Virus record (IMG/VR): IMGVR_UViG_3300017917_002339
Coordinates: 1-21,405 of that record
Length of the DNA stretch: 21,405 nucleotides
Source of the DNA: a virus
Reading direction: 5' to 3' (one strand)
Numbering within the stretch: position 1 is the first letter of the stretch; the number at the start of each line of letters is the position of its first letter. A model generated the notes under the pieces. It ran no database searches and had not been told where the DNA came from. It saw nothing but the letters and a program-made list of their open reading frames with translations. This document shows, one piece after another, positions 5,653 to 15,708 of this stretch. Made by a program: the position numbers and the translations under genes.

Positions 5653-7005
5653 ATGATACAATGGCCAGTTCAACCACAAAACAAAAAATATGAGCGATGG
5701 TACGATCTGTTGATAACCAGCGCCCAGGCAAGACAGCTTGGCGATGATATCTATACCGAGACTCATCATATTATTCCAAGAAGTTTTGATGGTTCAAATG
5801 ATCGAACCAATTTAGTTGACTTAACAGCTCGAGAACATTATATTGCACATGCACTACTTTGGAAAATGAACTTTCCTAAAAAGTATGGACGCAAGATGTC
5901 ATTTGCATTTAATACATTCATGAACAAGATGCAAAAAAACAATCCGGTCAACAAGCATAGACACAATCATGATTACAAAATAAACAGTCGAATTTATGAA
6001 AGTTTTCGAATACAATATGCTCAAATGCTAAGTGAAAAAATGAAAGGTAAAGGCAACCATTTTTATGGCAAAACTCACAGTGAAGAAACTCGGCGAAAAA
6101 TTGGAGAAAAAAGTAAATTAAAAGAATTCAAACGTGGATCTGATCATCCAAATTGGGGTAAACCAAGTCATGTCACTCCGGAGGGCAAAGCAAGACAAAT
6201 TTCTGCAATCAGACAACGATGGGCCGATCCAGAATTTAAAAAAACAATGATTGAAAAACGAAAAGCGTTTTTACAGACTCCTCAGGGCATTGAACAAAGA
6301 AAAAAATTTGCCGAGAACAATAGAACAAGAGTAAGAACGCCTGAACAAATTGAAAAAACTGCAGCAGCCAAAAGAGGAAAAACCTGGGAAGAACTTTACA
6401 CTGCTGAACAAATAGAAAGATTAAGAGCCGGAGCTAAAAATCGAGTGCTGAGTCCAGAAGCTCGCGCTCGAATAAGTGAAGCAACTAGAAAACTTGGTCA
6501 GCGTCCAAAATCTGAGGAACACAAAAGAAAAATATCAGAAAGCAACAAAGGCAAACACAGTGGCATGGTAGGTGAAAAAAATCATCGATGGGGTAAAAAA
6601 CTATCAGCTGAACAAAAAGAAAAATTACGCCAAGCAAATTTACAAAGATACCATGATAGATTATCTCAGAAATTTGTTGGCCCAATGAGACCTCTGACAG
6701 CTTTTGAATTTCGAGGTGTTGTGTACAAAACTGTTGGCACAGCAGCAAGAGCACACAATCTAACAATTGGAAAAGTTCGATTACAAGTCAAGTATTGGGG
6801 CAATAATCCCAGTGAAAGCACAATTGAAAAAATTAATTCAGGCCAACTAAAATATCCTCGAACAGCACCAAACAAGGGTATACCAATGACCGACGAACAA
6901 AAAAGAACTATAAGTCAAACAAAACAAAAAAAGATGCAGGAGCTTCAAGAAGCTGGCATTCCATTACCCAACACCGGAAGAAGAAAGATACATAAGGAAT
7001 CCTAA
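5653..7005 (+). CDS. HNH homing-type endonuclease with NUMOD3 repeats
   Basis: Residues 36-66 carry an HNH core: THHIIPRSF (His38/His39), N53 in DRTNLVDL, then H62 and H66 in REHYIAHALL. Behind it are several NUMOD3-type DNA-binding repeats, for example GNHFYGKTHSEETRRKIGEK (about residues 136-155), SEEHKRKISESNKGKHSG and KNHRWGKKLSAEQKEKLRQA. The C-terminal part resembles a NUMOD1-like helix-turn-helix (GVVYKTVGTAARAHNLTIG). Such proteins are free-standing homing endonucleases that cut and spread into phage genomes lacking them. The gene is richer in A and in AAA/AGA codons than its neighbours, as expected for a recent mobile insertion. It sits exactly between two operon genes: one base after 5651, and its TAA overlaps the ATG at 7005. 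No intron is seen. Confidence 0.88.
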   Translation: MIQWPVQPQNKKYERWYDLLITSAQARQLGDDIYTETHHIIPRSFDGSNDRTNLVDLTAREHYIAHALLWKMNFPKKYGRKMSFAFNTFMNKMQKNNPVNKHRHNHDYKINSRIYESFRIQYAQMLSEKMKGKGNHFYGKTHSEETRRKIGEKSKLKEFKRGSDHPNWGKPSHVTPEGKARQISAIRQRWADPEFKKTMIEKRKAFLQTPQGIEQRKKFAENNRTRVRTPEQIEKTAAAKRGKTWEELYTAEQIERLRAGAKNRVLSPEARARISEATRKLGQRPKSEEHKRKISESNKGKHSGMVGEKNHRWGKKLSAEQKEKLRQANLQRYHDRLSQKFVGPMRPLTAFEFRGVVYKTVGTAARAHNLTIGKVRLQVKYWGNNPSESTIEKINSGQLKYPRTAPNKGIPMTDEQKRTISQTKQKKMQELQEAGIPLPNTGRRKIHKES

Positions 7006-11059: not shown

Positions 11060-11440
11060 ATGGCTTTAGTTCTTAACCCTACTGTTAGTGTCACTGATAG
11101 TACCACTGTGAGTAACACTAGCGGTCCTTACTCAATTACTTCCGGAATTTCAATTCCTTGGACTGGTAGTGTCAGTAGCGACACCTACACTATTGATCCT
11201 AATTGGCCTAACAGTACCTCGGCTAAGATTCAACTCGACGGCCCAGATGCCGATATTGAAATCAACGGCGAAAGTTTATTAGACATGCTCCGCAACATTG
11301 AACAACGTCTAAATATACTGAAGCCTAATCCTGAATTGGAATCAGAATGGGCAGAACTTAGGGCACTTGGTGAACAATACAGAGCACTGGAGAAGCACAT
11401 TCAAGCCAAAATGAAGACGTGGGACGCTATCAGTAAGTAA
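11060..11440 (+). CDS. Probable virion structural protein
   Basis: The 126-residue protein has a Ser/Thr-rich N-terminal half (residues 1-60) with short beta-like repeats, the motif IQLDGPDADIEINGESLLDML at about residues 56-76, and a helical C-terminus (EWAELRALGEQYRALEKHIQAKMKTWDAIS). I recognise the C-terminal helix, with ELRALGEQYRALEK, as widespread in tail or structural proteins of marine T4-like phages, where it may form a coiled coil. The exact place in the virion is not known. It follows the Hc1-like gene by one base and its TAA overlaps the next ATG (TAATG), so it is co-expressed with the radical SAM gene. Confidence 0.65.
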   Translation: MALVLNPTVSVTDSTTVSNTSGPYSITSGISIPWTGSVSSDTYTIDPNWPNSTSAKIQLDGPDADIEINGESLLDMLRNIEQRLNILKPNPELESEWAELRALGEQYRALEKHIQAKMKTWDAISK

Positions 11441-12861
11441 TGTCTACATGGTCTGAGTTTTACAATGAAATAAAAGATCCAAGCTGGCCCGAGTGTAACG
11501 ACGAGAGCCAGTTTGATTCTTTGCCTGAGCACATTCAACAAGAATGTGTTGACGTTTTTGGATATGTACCTGGACAATTTAAAAAATCCAGCAAACTAGT
11601 CAATCGAGTATTTCCTATCAAGACAGCTACAGCCTGTCAGCTCAAGTGGAATTGGAGCACAATCTTCTTAACTACAGAAGAAACTGCCAGTTGTCATAGA
11701 ACCAATCATCACCAATTTGATACAGATCAATTTGATTTTCATAATACTCCAAGCAAGTTGCAGGATCGGCAACATATGTTAAATGGTGAGTGGCCTGAAC
11801 ACGGATGTAGTTATTGTCAAGACATTGAACATGCCGGGGGACAAAGTGATAGAATTACTAACTTAGACTTTCCTGGCATCCATGCACCATTGGAGTTAGA
11901 AAATAACTCAACCGCTACAGTAGTAACTCCACGTATTTTAGAAGTTTATTTTGATAATACTTGTAATTTAAAATGTCTTTATTGCGGTCCTCATTTCAGC
12001 AGTCTCTGGGACGCTGAAAATAAACGCCATGGTAAATTTGTCAAAGGTGATTTGATAATCAATAACAAATTTCAAAAAAGTATCAATATTGAAAAAAACA
12101 AACAAAAAATGTTTGAGTGGTTGATTTTAAACAGACAACATCTTACTAATTTTAATATTTTAGGTGGCGAGCCATTTTATCAACAAGAGCTAGAACAGTG
12201 TTTGGATTTGTTTGATCAACACCCGGCGCCAGAATTAAAACTGCAAATTTTTACAAATCTCAATGTTAAACTTTCTAAGCTTCAAACTATTATACAACGT
12301 ATTAAATGTTTAATAGATCAAGACAAACTACGAGAGTTTGAAATCACTGCTAGCCTGGACTGTTGGGGATCACCGCAAGAGTATGTTCGATATCCACTGA
12401 ACCTGGTCAGTTGGGAAGAAAACTTTAACTATCTATTGTCGCAATCATGGATTAATCTAATTGTTAGTTCTACAGTTACTCCATTAACTGTTAAAACATT
12501 ACCAGATTTGTTACAAAAAATCAATCAGTGGAATCAACAAAGAACCGTGTATCACTATCAAAATTCAGTCAATGGACCGAGCTACATGTTTATTGATATA
12601 TTTGGTGATATATTTGTTGACGATTTTGCTCAGGCTCTATCACTCAAACAAACAAATAATCCAGAACAAATTGCTAGCAAAAATTATCTGTTGGGTATAG
12701 CTCAACAAAGTGCCAGCAAAGGACCTAATATCCCTGAAATAACCAAACTTTTTAATTTCCTAAATGAAATGGATCGCAGGCGTAATACCAATTGGCAGCA
12801 GATATTTCCATGGTTAGTGCCTGAATTTTCCAAATACGGATTGACAATAACCAAACTATAG
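11440..12861 (+). CDS. Radical SAM protein
   Basis: The 473-residue protein has the radical SAM cluster motif C175-x3-C179-x2-C182 in FDNTCNLKCLYCGPHFSSLW, which binds the [4Fe-4S] cluster that cleaves S-adenosylmethionine, and the downstream GGEP motif (residues 242-245) expected for AdoMet binding. Earlier Cys residues (C123-x2-C126 in CSYCQDIEHAGGQSDR, and SCHRTNHH) could hold a second cluster. The C-terminal part after about residue 330 is not recognised. Proteins of this type occur in marine T4-like phages, often called 'twitch-domain radical SAM', with unknown substrate. It sits between structural genes (TAATG overlap with 11060-11440), so a peptide or protein modification in the virion, or a nucleotide modification, are both possible. 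Catalysis call firm, substrate unknown. Confidence 0.88.
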   Translation: MSTWSEFYNEIKDPSWPECNDESQFDSLPEHIQQECVDVFGYVPGQFKKSSKLVNRVFPIKTATACQLKWNWSTIFLTTEETASCHRTNHHQFDTDQFDFHNTPSKLQDRQHMLNGEWPEHGCSYCQDIEHAGGQSDRITNLDFPGIHAPLELENNSTATVVTPRILEVYFDNTCNLKCLYCGPHFSSLWDAENKRHGKFVKGDLIINNKFQKSINIEKNKQKMFEWLILNRQHLTNFNILGGEPFYQQELEQCLDLFDQHPAPELKLQIFTNLNVKLSKLQTIIQRIKCLIDQDKLREFEITASLDCWGSPQEYVRYPLNLVSWEENFNYLLSQSWINLIVSSTVTPLTVKTLPDLLQKINQWNQQRTVYHYQNSVNGPSYMFIDIFGDIFVDDFAQALSLKQTNNPEQIASKNYLLGIAQQSASKGPNIPEITKLFNFLNEMDRRRNTNWQQIFPWLVPEFSKYGLTITKL

Positions 12862-12890
12862 TGTATAATAACAGTATTGTCGTTAAATAC
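12841..12890 (+). promoter_or_regulatory. Consensus sigma-70 promoter plus late-type element for the 12.9-13.3 kb RNA
   Basis: TTGACA at 12841-12846 and TATAAT at 12864-12869 are perfect boxes with 17-base spacing at the end of the radical SAM gene (expected start near 12876). A TTAAATAC late-type element follows at 12883-12890. There is no gene start within the next 400 bases, so both serve the structured RNA or leader downstream. Confidence 0.8.
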
Positions 12891-13270
12891 CTATATAATG
12901 GCAAAAAGTGGTAAGAAAAGAGCTGTTTTTAGCTCAAGACAGTGCTCGGAACTAAGTATTTGTGCATGTGGTAAAAACAACTTAGCTGATCATATTGATA
13001 CAGCAGAAGATCACAATCTTAGAACCACAGCACCTCGGTAGTTTGTGCCGAGTAACAAACAGCAAACATAGGTGCAGTGATTGAAGTTTGTCCAAACTGA
13101 TATTGCTGTTCGAAAGAGACCGTCGGAACGTCTCTTCGTTGACAAATGGTATTGACTGAGTTTGTAGTATTTCGGACAAAAAGCTCAGTCCAAGAGAGTA
13201 TGGCAAAGAAGGCCCCGAGTCTCGTTATGTATATCTCACACCGTCAATGCGCTCATTCCGAGCACCTCCG
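12876..13270 (+). ncRNA. Candidate large structured RNA or lysis-gene leader
   Basis: The 443 bases between the radical SAM and hydrolase genes hold no convincing ORF but a nested set of helices: a 10-bp closing helix (12942-12951 with 13256-13265, both strands perfect), 12952-12957 with 12980-12985, 12986-12992 with 12996-13003, 13007-13011 with 13016-13020, 13030-13035 with 13070-13075, 13085-13089 with 13094-13098, 13114-13120 with 13130-13136, 13137-13143 with 13243-13249 (one G-U pair), and 13154-13160 with 13184-13190 stacked on 13161-13165 with 13176-13180. 13058-13065 can also pair perfectly with 13103-13110, crossing the 13030 helix as a pseudoknot. A GAGCT/AGCTC hairpin at 12920-12935 precedes the closing helix. 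No terminator is seen before 13305, so it may be the leader of the hydrolase mRNA. Confidence 0.65.
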
Positions 13271-13304
13271 CTGAAGAGCCCAGTATGGTTCAAAGGAGAA
13301 TGAC

Positions 13305-13892
13305 ATGACTCAACCGTCAAGTAAACAACCAGTAGTAGAAGACATAAAAGTATGGGCAGTCAAAACATTTTGTTTTTTCTGTGTGATGTTTGCAGTGGTT
13401 ATAGTAACCACAATCAAGCTAGATCAACTAGCATCATCTAATGACGCTTGGCGTCAAGGATTTGTTTCAGCAGAAGACCGTACACGGCAGTTGAAATGTA
13501 TGACCCAGAACATTTACTGGGAAGCCGCTAGCGAGCCATTTGAAGGCAAAGTAGCAGTGGCACAAGTAACCATGAACCGGGTGGCGTCAGGACGTTTTGC
13601 ATCAGATGTTTGTGGTGTTGTTTATCAAAAGAACATTGTCTATGAGAAAGTGGTTTGCCAGTTCTCGTGGTATTGCGAAGGCACTCACCGAGTGCGACCA
13701 GTGCATGCGGCACTTTGGAAAGAATCAGAAGAAGTTGCCAAAAAAGTTTTGCTGGAAGGATTCCGATTACCATCAATGAAAGACGCACTATACTATCACG
13801 CAGACTATGTAAACCCTCAATGGGGCAAACCAAAAATTGACAAAATTGGACGTCACATATTTTACAGAGAACGTGAAGGGCGCCGTATATGA
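13305..13892 (+). CDS. SleB-type cell wall hydrolase with N-terminal membrane anchor
   Basis: The 195-residue protein has a transmembrane segment at about residues 20-37, then a SleB/Hydrolase_2 domain from about residue 63: MTQNIYWEAASEPFEGKVAV holds Glu73 in YWEAASEP, the catalytic Glu of this family, and the VAQVTMNRV helix with the conserved N-R follows. YYHADYVNPQWGK near the C-terminus matches the end of the family. It cuts bonds of peptidoglycan, and the anchor or a signal-arrest segment would place the domain in the periplasm, so it most likely acts in phage lysis. A clear AAAGGAGAA site precedes the ATG. The next gene, a small membrane protein, overlaps it by ATGA, as expected for a lysis cassette. 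Domain call firm; role as endolysin is inferred. Confidence 0.88.
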   Translation: MTQPSSKQPVVEDIKVWAVKTFCFFCVMFAVVIVTTIKLDQLASSNDAWRQGFVSAEDRTRQLKCMTQNIYWEAASEPFEGKVAVAQVTMNRVASGRFASDVCGVVYQKNIVYEKVVCQFSWYCEGTHRVRPVHAALWKESEEVAKKVLLEGFRLPSMKDALYYHADYVNPQWGKPKIDKIGRHIFYREREGRRI

Positions 13893-14191
13893 TTTCTTTC
13901 AAAGAACGTGCCAATGCTTGGTTGTCCGAACACTTGCCTAAAGTAAGTGCCGATACCCTGGGTTGGTTAGCAGTGATTCTAATTCACTGTGCAACCATCC
14001 CTACTTTGTTGGCCTTGCTCACAGGACTTTCAGACAACGTCCCTAACTTGGATATTGTGCTATTCATGTGGGCAGGTTTGGTACTACTATTCATTAGATC
14101 TGTAGTATTAAAGGATACTTTAAATATCATTACAATTGGTACAGGCTTTATTGTACAAGCTGTAATAATGGCTATGATCTTGTTCAAATAA
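13889..14191 (+). CDS. Small membrane protein, holin candidate
   Basis: The 100-residue protein has three hydrophobic segments, about residues 24-44, 54-71 and 79-98, with short charged loops between them. It overlaps the hydrolase gene by ATGA, and the size, number of segments and position next to an enzyme that must reach peptidoglycan suit a holin. There is no sequence match I can name, so the role is inferred from context. The 3' end lies just before a GGTTGACCA-type promoter at 14197. Confidence 0.6.
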   Translation: MISFKERANAWLSEHLPKVSADTLGWLAVILIHCATIPTLLALLTGLSDNVPNLDIVLFMWAGLVLLFIRSVVLKDTLNIITIGTGFIVQAVIMAMILFK

Positions 14192-14196
14192 ATTGG

Positions 14197-14225
14197 TTGA
14201 CCAAAAACTCCTATCATGCTATAAT
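14197..14225 (+). promoter_or_regulatory. Sigma-70 promoter of the GGTTGACCA family
   Basis: TTGACC at 14197-14202 and TATAAT at 14220-14225, 17-base spacing, with GGTTGACCA and GC extensions. Transcribes the genes from 14254, including IF-1 and superoxide dismutase. Confidence 0.8.
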
Positions 14226-15165: not shown

Positions 15166-15708
15166 ATGCGTAAAGAAATCAACCTAATAGAAGCCAGCAC
15201 ACGTCCAGCCAAACTGGAAACTACTCCTTTGCCTTATTCGGAAAAGGATCTAGAACCAGTGATGTCCAAAGACACAATAGACTACCATTATGAGCATCTA
15301 GCCAAAGGTTATGCAAAACGCTACAATGCCGGTGAAGGCAATGCTGATTTCAATCGTGCAGGTAGTTTTTTACACAATAAATTTTTCCCACAATTATGTG
15401 CCCCAAAAGGTGCCAACAAACCCAAAGGTGCTGTGCTAGAGCTAATTGAGGCCAACTTCAAAACCTACGAAGACTTCAAAGCGGCTGTGAAAGAAACAGC
15501 AATGAAAATTCAAGGGTCGGGTTGGGTTTATCTTTCAACCGGCGGCGAAATCAAAACAATCAAAAACCATGCGGTGCGTACAGATATATGCGTACTTATT
15601 GATTGGTGGGAACACGCATGGGCACTTGACTATCAAAGCGATAAAGAACGTTACCTAGACAATATTTGGAAAATTATTGACTGGGACGTTTGTAACCAAC
15701 GCTTGTAA
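15166..15708 (+). CDS. Fe/Mn superoxide dismutase
   Basis: The 180-residue protein has the four metal ligands in order: His41 in TIDYHYEHL, His70 in SFLHNKFF, and Asp146 and His150 in DWWEHAW. The gateway Tyr is at position 49, eight residues after the first His as in bacterial enzymes. GSGWVYL (117-123) and DWWEHAWALDY match the family. It converts superoxide to oxygen and hydrogen peroxide and probably protects the infected cell. The residue four before His70 is Gly66, as in Mn enzymes, but the Gln expected near the NQD site is replaced by His135, so metal preference is unclear. The C-terminus lacks the usual extension after DWDVCNQRL. It follows IF-1 closely and ends before the tail genes. 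Confidence 0.9.
   Translation: MRKEINLIEASTRPAKLETTPLPYSEKDLEPVMSKDTIDYHYEHLAKGYAKRYNAGEGNADFNRAGSFLHNKFFPQLCAPKGANKPKGAVLELIEANFKTYEDFKAAVKETAMKIQGSGWVYLSTGGEIKTIKNHAVRTDICVLIDWWEHAWALDYQSDKERYLDNIWKIIDWDVCNQRL

Follow-up and report, generated by a model that had tools for sequence, protein, structure and literature searches.

In a group of large phages, the cell-wall hydrolase gene is preceded by a conserved and covarying RNA, and the evidence supports its being a new RNA family without a match in Rfam. The RNA was studied in a 21,405-nt fragment of IMG/VR (record IMGVR_UViG_3300017917_002339, positions 1-21,405; hereafter the window). A structured RNA is conserved on the same strand as, and directly 5' of, a SleB-type gene wherever the flank is present, which is the arrangement of a cis-acting leader. 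We consider it probable that the RNA is the 5' leader of a lysis operon, controlling in cis the output of SleB and of a holin-like protein. Lysis timing is usually explained by the holin and endolysin proteins. If our reading is correct, this new RNA family would offer a concrete RNA route to lysis timing. In the phage group in question, the endolysin gene is immediately preceded by one of the larger structured leader RNAs, which covaries strongly and has no known relative.

The SleB leader and its family

The features that delimit the leader in the window are as follows:

12841-12869, + strand: sigma70-type promoter TTGACA-N17-TATAAT, with 12 of 12 consensus bases matched
12876-13304, + strand: whole leader RNA, from the transcription start inferred from the promoter to the SleB start codon (nhmmer family)
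13294-13298, + strand: Shine-Dalgarno AGGAG of SleB, from the sequence
13305-13892, + strand: SleB/Hydrolase_2 cell-wall hydrolase (Pfam PF07486, E=1.7e-24; phrog_938 endolysin)
13889-14191, + strand: 100-aa holin-like protein with three hydrophobic segments by hydropathy, its start overlapping the SleB stop

The first-pass annotation of this DNA had claimed a perfect promoter, and both hexamers are indeed intact (TTGACA at 12841-12846, TATAAT at 12864-12869, 17-bp spacing), one base upstream of where they had been placed. It had also described about 430 bases without a gene start; there is none before the ATG at 13305, except that of a 47-codon ORF (12898-13041) whose frame is lost in relatives. 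A radical-SAM-like gene (11440-12861) ends just at the leader promoter, with the -35 hexamer inside the gene and the -10 hexamer immediately after the stop codon. No intrinsic terminator-like site was found on the + strand between the promoter and SleB. In the shuffled-sequence folding test that had been proposed, the window leader is more stable than its dinucleotide shuffles (-122.7 versus -101.3 +/- 5.7 kcal/mol, z = -3.7; a single shuffle in 100 is equally stable), and the same test on two homologues gives z = -1.6 (L017) and z = -2.5 (L117).

SleB has an N-terminal hydrophobic (membrane) segment at about residues 16-40, and the 100-aa protein, which has no Pfam match, is conserved beside SleB in the family loci; from these features the two look like a signal-anchored endolysin and a holin. 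The genes upstream of the RNA belong to six unrelated protein clusters, whereas SleB and the holin-like gene are constant; the RNA thus moves as a unit with these two genes.

Searching with the SleB protein yielded 80 loci, and iterated nhmmer searches with the leader located the RNA upstream of SleB in many of them. Scanning with the helix F motif, in which SleB was not used, found the RNA in 49 IMG/VR contigs, and scans with two more motifs, drawn from the 3' domain and the 5' domain, respectively, brought in additional family members. By our own count, the long form (350-430 nt) occurs in about 56 further IMG/VR contigs and a short form of about 140 nt in about ten (L018, L023, L047 and relatives). 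Across the three RNA-motif scans, every real member with a downstream flank has a SleB-type gene directly 3' of the RNA; in L089 and L135 the end of the locus cuts this flank off. The association extends to SleB proteins that are only about 31-35% identical (L016, L090, L118, L120, L130 and L136). In L016 and L090 the RNA stands before a divergent second SleB (about 33-35% identical), and the main SleB comes next, without a leader of this RNA family. A near-perfect promoter (at most 2 mismatches in 12) lies at a fixed distance from the RNA in 26 of 37 homologous loci, while the remaining 11 lack it yet keep the RNA. The carriers are large, uncultured phages, all members being from metagenome assemblies, and each of 13 large viral contigs (83-337 kb) has one full copy per genome.

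The Rfam search with Infernal proposed in the first-pass annotation (cmscan, Rfam 15; window and 16 homologous loci) gave no match for the leader, with GOLLD and ROOL absent even at E<=1 or 5 and no hit to known riboswitch aptamer families or to group I/II introns; in addition, the RNA stops at the Shine-Dalgarno, and its flanks show no exon reading frame. The suggestion that the RNA is either a new class or a long leader regulating the SleB-type hydrolase is thus supported, since the RNA precedes SleB wherever the flank is present and matches no Rfam family. Among isolated phages, blastn with the window region and the L017 RNA gave only short chance matches, mostly to the promoter stretch, and in six isolated phages the gap upstream of the SleB gene is about 130 nt at most and gives no covariance model match. 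Two motif scans of 84,980 bacterial and archaeal genomes yielded no convincing member (0 matches for the first motif and 3, chance-like, for the second). A weak match at L144:1909-2069 (covariance model E=0.04, nhmmer E=0.001), on a contig binned to a Planctomycetota MAG and with no SleB nearby, is probably due to chance. No paper describing the leader RNA was found in the PMC open-licence literature.

Fold and covariation

A fold was derived from a sequence-only alignment of 35 full-length members. It comprises nine helices (B, A, M, E, F, G, K and I among those named) and two H-type pseudoknots (C/D and S1/S2), and leaves the 5' ~70 nt without an assigned fold. Its elements in the window are:

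12891-12958, + strand: 5' domain (TATATAATGGCAAAAA ... ACTAAGTA), from the alignment; related to the shorter SleB leaders of sister phages
12964-13031, + strand: helix B, 12964-12965 and 12967-12972 with 13024-13031, enclosing helices A and M
12985-13004, + strand: helix A, 12985-12992 with 12996-13004 and one bulge; 47 double-changed cells in 6 of 8 pairs
13008-13019, + strand: mini-hairpin M (AGAU-CACA-AUCU); 87% of cells paired, 3 double-changed cells in 2 pairs
13034-13067, + strand: H-type pseudoknot 1, stem C 13034-13038/13048-13052 and stem D 13041-13045/13063-13067, from pairing and double changes
13075-13108, + strand: peripheral helix E, 13075-13077/13106-13108 and 13085-13089/13094-13098; window-like subgroup only, 93% of cells paired
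13114-13136, + strand: helix F (AAGAGAC with GUCUCUU, cap c(NUCG)g); 100% of cells paired
13137-13249, + strand: helix K, 13137-13143 with 13243-13249, closing the 3' domain; 96% of cells paired
13154-13190, + strand: helix G (GACUGAG with CUCAGUC); in the window-like subgroup 96% paired, with 23 double-changed cells in 6 of 7 pairs
13251-13263, + strand: hairpin I (GCUC/GAGC), 13251-13254/13260-13263; 100% of cells paired, two compensatory pairs, pair 13253-13261 at E=0.046
13270-13291, + strand: H-type pseudoknot 2, S1 13270-13273/13281-13284 and S2 13276-13280/13287-13291, directly 5' of the Shine-Dalgarno

Covariation was assessed with our own R-scape-style re-implementation (G-test with APC), in which the null replays substitutions on a FastTree tree of the sequence-only alignment and the E-values are approximate. 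With this phylogeny-aware test, E falls below 0.05 for nine pairs, which belong to helices A, B, F, I, S1 and S2. When all column pairs are tested without an assumed structure, three are significant, all of them canonical and all within the model. For the 3' domain (MAFFT alignment), 94.9% of cells are standard pairs, versus at most 53% in slid registers, and the covariation score is 0.324 versus 0.146 for shuffles and at most 0.086 for slid registers. Helices C, D, E, G, M and K are backed by pairing or double changes, with no single pair reaching significance.

Pseudoknot 2 is the best-supported element of the fold. S1 is complete in 42 of 42 sequences, in the variants GCUG/CAGU, GGUG/CACU, GCAG/CUGU and GCCG/CGGU, and its pair 13271-13283 covaries at E=1.5e-4. 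Three pairs of S2 are significant (E=7e-5 to 8e-4), and all five show double changes in the 3'-domain alignment. The distance from the end of the pseudoknot to the Shine-Dalgarno is 0-3 nt across the family. In the window, the Shine-Dalgarno is predicted to pair (P=0.98) with a CUCC at about 13266-13269, just 5' of the pseudoknot. As a family-wide feature this covering was rejected, for it exceeds P 0.5 in only 12 of 37 members.

In the 5' half, helix A contains two significant pairs (12988-13001, E=0.003; 12989-12999, E=1.4e-5). Helix B is paired in 89% of cells, with 28 double-changed cells in 7 of 8 pairs and pair 12969-13027 at E=0.018; its 6-bp match is found with 40 of 40 own partners, versus a mean of 5.57 bp after partner swapping. 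This domain is absent in L092 and L107, and L092 has a perfect 11-bp version of helix E in the alignment. Stems C and D of pseudoknot 1 are 89% and 86% paired in ten window-like sequences, with 5 and 14 double-changed cells, respectively, and no single pair significant on the tree. A pairing of CGG near 13036 with CCG near 13268, proposed by RNAalifold alone, was dropped in favour of stem C, which has double changes. Helix F shows compensatory changes in two pairs (13120-13130, E=0.039). Helix K is mostly invariant, with one pair changed on both sides, so its covariation support is weak, and helix G is not significant on the joint alignment because the other subgroup pairs in a different register. 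The RNA also contains long stretches of conserved but unpaired sequence (ACUAAGUA, AAAUGGUAU and GAGAGUAUGGCA).

This architecture differs from the one first drawn from the window, which had proposed eight or more local helices, several of which are real and covarying. Its three named complementarities are exact in the window, but among the 35 homologues they are paired little more often than the best slid register: a 10-bp closing helix (12942-12951/13256-13265) is 50% paired versus 44% in the best slid register, an 8-bp pseudoknot (13058-13065/13103-13110) 71% versus 56%, and a GCACCT/AGGTGC helix 48% versus 38%. The closing helix is already lost in L002, whose leader is 88% identical, and in the very similar L121, and it competes with the conserved hairpin I, whose 3' strand it uses. 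In the covariation check that had been proposed alongside them, none of the 24 pairs drawn from the window covary, in contrast to the nine of the homologue-derived fold. The three were rejected as family structure and are features of this one sequence.

Proposed role in lysis and competing explanations

We propose that transcription of the leader starts at a strong sigma70-type promoter of its own, or reaches it by read-through where this promoter is lacking, and that the leader would set the timing and the level of production of SleB endolysin and the overlapping holin-like protein. Pseudoknot 2 would be the output part, positioning or withholding the Shine-Dalgarno, and the upstream domains may act as a sensor with a putative ligand or protein binding site that sets the switch. 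Control would presumably be translational, as no intrinsic terminator was found in the leader. A simple sequestration switch lacks family-wide support, since the CUCC pairing is strong in the window but is predicted in only about a third of the members. It also speaks against the leader model that 350-430 nt is long for plain translational control, and that related phages manage with less, as the other SleB genes in the locus set have shorter leaders (gaps of about 60-195 nt) or, in some phages, none.

Between the two options raised at the outset, the evidence strongly favours a cis-acting leader over an independent RNA of the GOLLD/ROOL kind, on account of its fixed position, single copy, retention without the promoter and movement with the lysis cassette. 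Such an independent RNA would act in trans, being co-transcribed with SleB and released by processing, and its location would only time its expression. For a plain leader, the RNA is unusual in its size, its pseudoknots, its accretion of domains and its long stretches of conserved unpaired sequence, all of which would suit this explanation, as would the promoter carried by most loci and the increase of GOLLD during lysis (PMC12286853). We nevertheless think it unlikely, given that there is no terminator before SleB, that the RNA is never found apart from SleB and persists in the promoterless loci, that its distance to the Shine-Dalgarno is fixed and that Rfam gives no match to GOLLD or ROOL. 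GOLLD and ROOL, too, are large and ornate phage RNAs with pseudoknots, known mostly from metagenomes (PMC12286853). They are, however, bigger (GOLLD often >800 nt), form cages and are found close to tRNA islands, whereas the SleB leader measures 350-430 nt and is fused to a coding gene, and the 21.4-kb window contains no tRNA genes. Membership in either class thus fails on both model match and location.

A special case of the leader model is a riboswitch proper, in which translation of the lysis genes would be switched by a small molecule bound to the RNA. The conserved unpaired stretches and an expression platform adjoining the Shine-Dalgarno would fit, and a c-di-GMP riboswitch in a phage lysis module provides a precedent (PMC3649979); the known classes in Rfam 15 do not match, however, the RNA occurs with one gene type only, a mutually exclusive fold is not among the results and a phage or host protein is an equally likely ligand, which leaves this case rather improbable. 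We give a similarly low chance to a constitutive translation or stability element, whose compact fold would shield the leader from nucleases and present the Shine-Dalgarno without switching. In many members pseudoknot 2 is stacked immediately 5' of a Shine-Dalgarno that is left uncovered, and helix E and domain B are gained and lost modularly, both as such an element would allow, but these roles rarely require extensive conserved unpaired sequence and the same gene is served by short leaders in sister phages. That there is no functional RNA at all, and that the complementarities are due to chance or the region encodes a small protein, is very improbable. The window does contain the 47-codon ORF and a 74-codon minus-strand ORF; yet the strong covariation already refutes this explanation for the 3' domain and helices A and B, and stops in the frames and non-triplet indels in the aligned homologues argue against coding. 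A small protein encoded in the leader was accordingly rejected, its reading frames not being conserved in homologues.

Known systems offer partial parallels to the cis-acting leader. In T4, mRNA structure at the start of the lysis gene e (lysozyme) prevents premature lysis, and a pseudoknot in the gene 32 leader is an autogenous translational operator (PMC3014915). The likeness to gene e lies in the structure at the start of a lysis gene (PMC3014915); in T4, however, a single hairpin masks the start region on read-through transcripts, whereas the SleB leader would be carried on the gene's own promoter transcript and its covering of the Shine-Dalgarno is not conserved in the family. The gene 32 pseudoknot lies about 67 nt before the start codon, while the SleB leader has two pseudoknots, one of them adjoining the Shine-Dalgarno, in an RNA of about 400 nt with at least nine helices and no AU-rich operator, and it serves a lysis gene whose product is a Hydrolase_2 and not an ssDNA-binding protein. 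The c-di-GMP-I riboswitches in the lysis modules of phiCD119-like prophages are also structured cis RNAs (PMC3649979), but belong to a small known aptamer class in Firmicutes prophages, to which the fold of the SleB leader is unrelated. As a single cis element beside a reporter-friendly start site, the leader has a role that can be tested with ordinary fusions.

Shorter leaders and neighbouring genes

One class of the short leaders shares the start of the RNA (GTTAATGGCAAAAA ... TAAGTA), and a profile of these leaders places the first ~35 nt of many members correctly, each match being weak (E 0.005-2.5). Short leaders of about 80-100 nt precede SleB in L030, L039, L045, L048, L055, L061, L080 and relatives; they end in GAGTAAGTAAAAGCC, directly adjoining the start codon, and have no clear Shine-Dalgarno, and their first part resembles the 5' domain of the window RNA. 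Two further short leader classes, conserved and unrelated, also lie before SleB, each behind its own promoter (L037, L046, L064, L069-L075, L078, L079 and L081; and L020, L021, L034, L038, L043, L051 and L053). Consensus folds for the short leaders of the other SleB genes show no covariation support.

Within the family, domain B is the addition seen in the short form; pseudoknot 1, helix F and the 3' domain come in with the long forms, and helix E is added in the window-like subgroup only. This distribution suggests that the leader may have grown in a modular manner, by domains, in which case the short, 350-nt and 430-nt forms would illustrate the stepwise growth of a structured leader. A more ambitious possibility, which we lean against while taking it seriously, is that the RNA represents a new large sensor class (a riboswitch or RNP switch) with which large aquatic phages would gauge the state of the host or infection, refold pseudoknot 2 and free lysis, its domains having accreted onto an ancestral leader of about 90 nt.

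Three other features of the window were observed. At 14197-14225, just after the holin-like gene, lies another near-perfect promoter (TTGACC-N17-TATAAT), whose -10 is preceded by TG. A homing-endonuclease-like gene is found at 5653-7005, and positions 15166-15708 encode an Fe/Mn superoxide dismutase (Sod_Fe_C E=7e-22, Sod_Fe_N E=3.5e-7), which is unusual in a phage.
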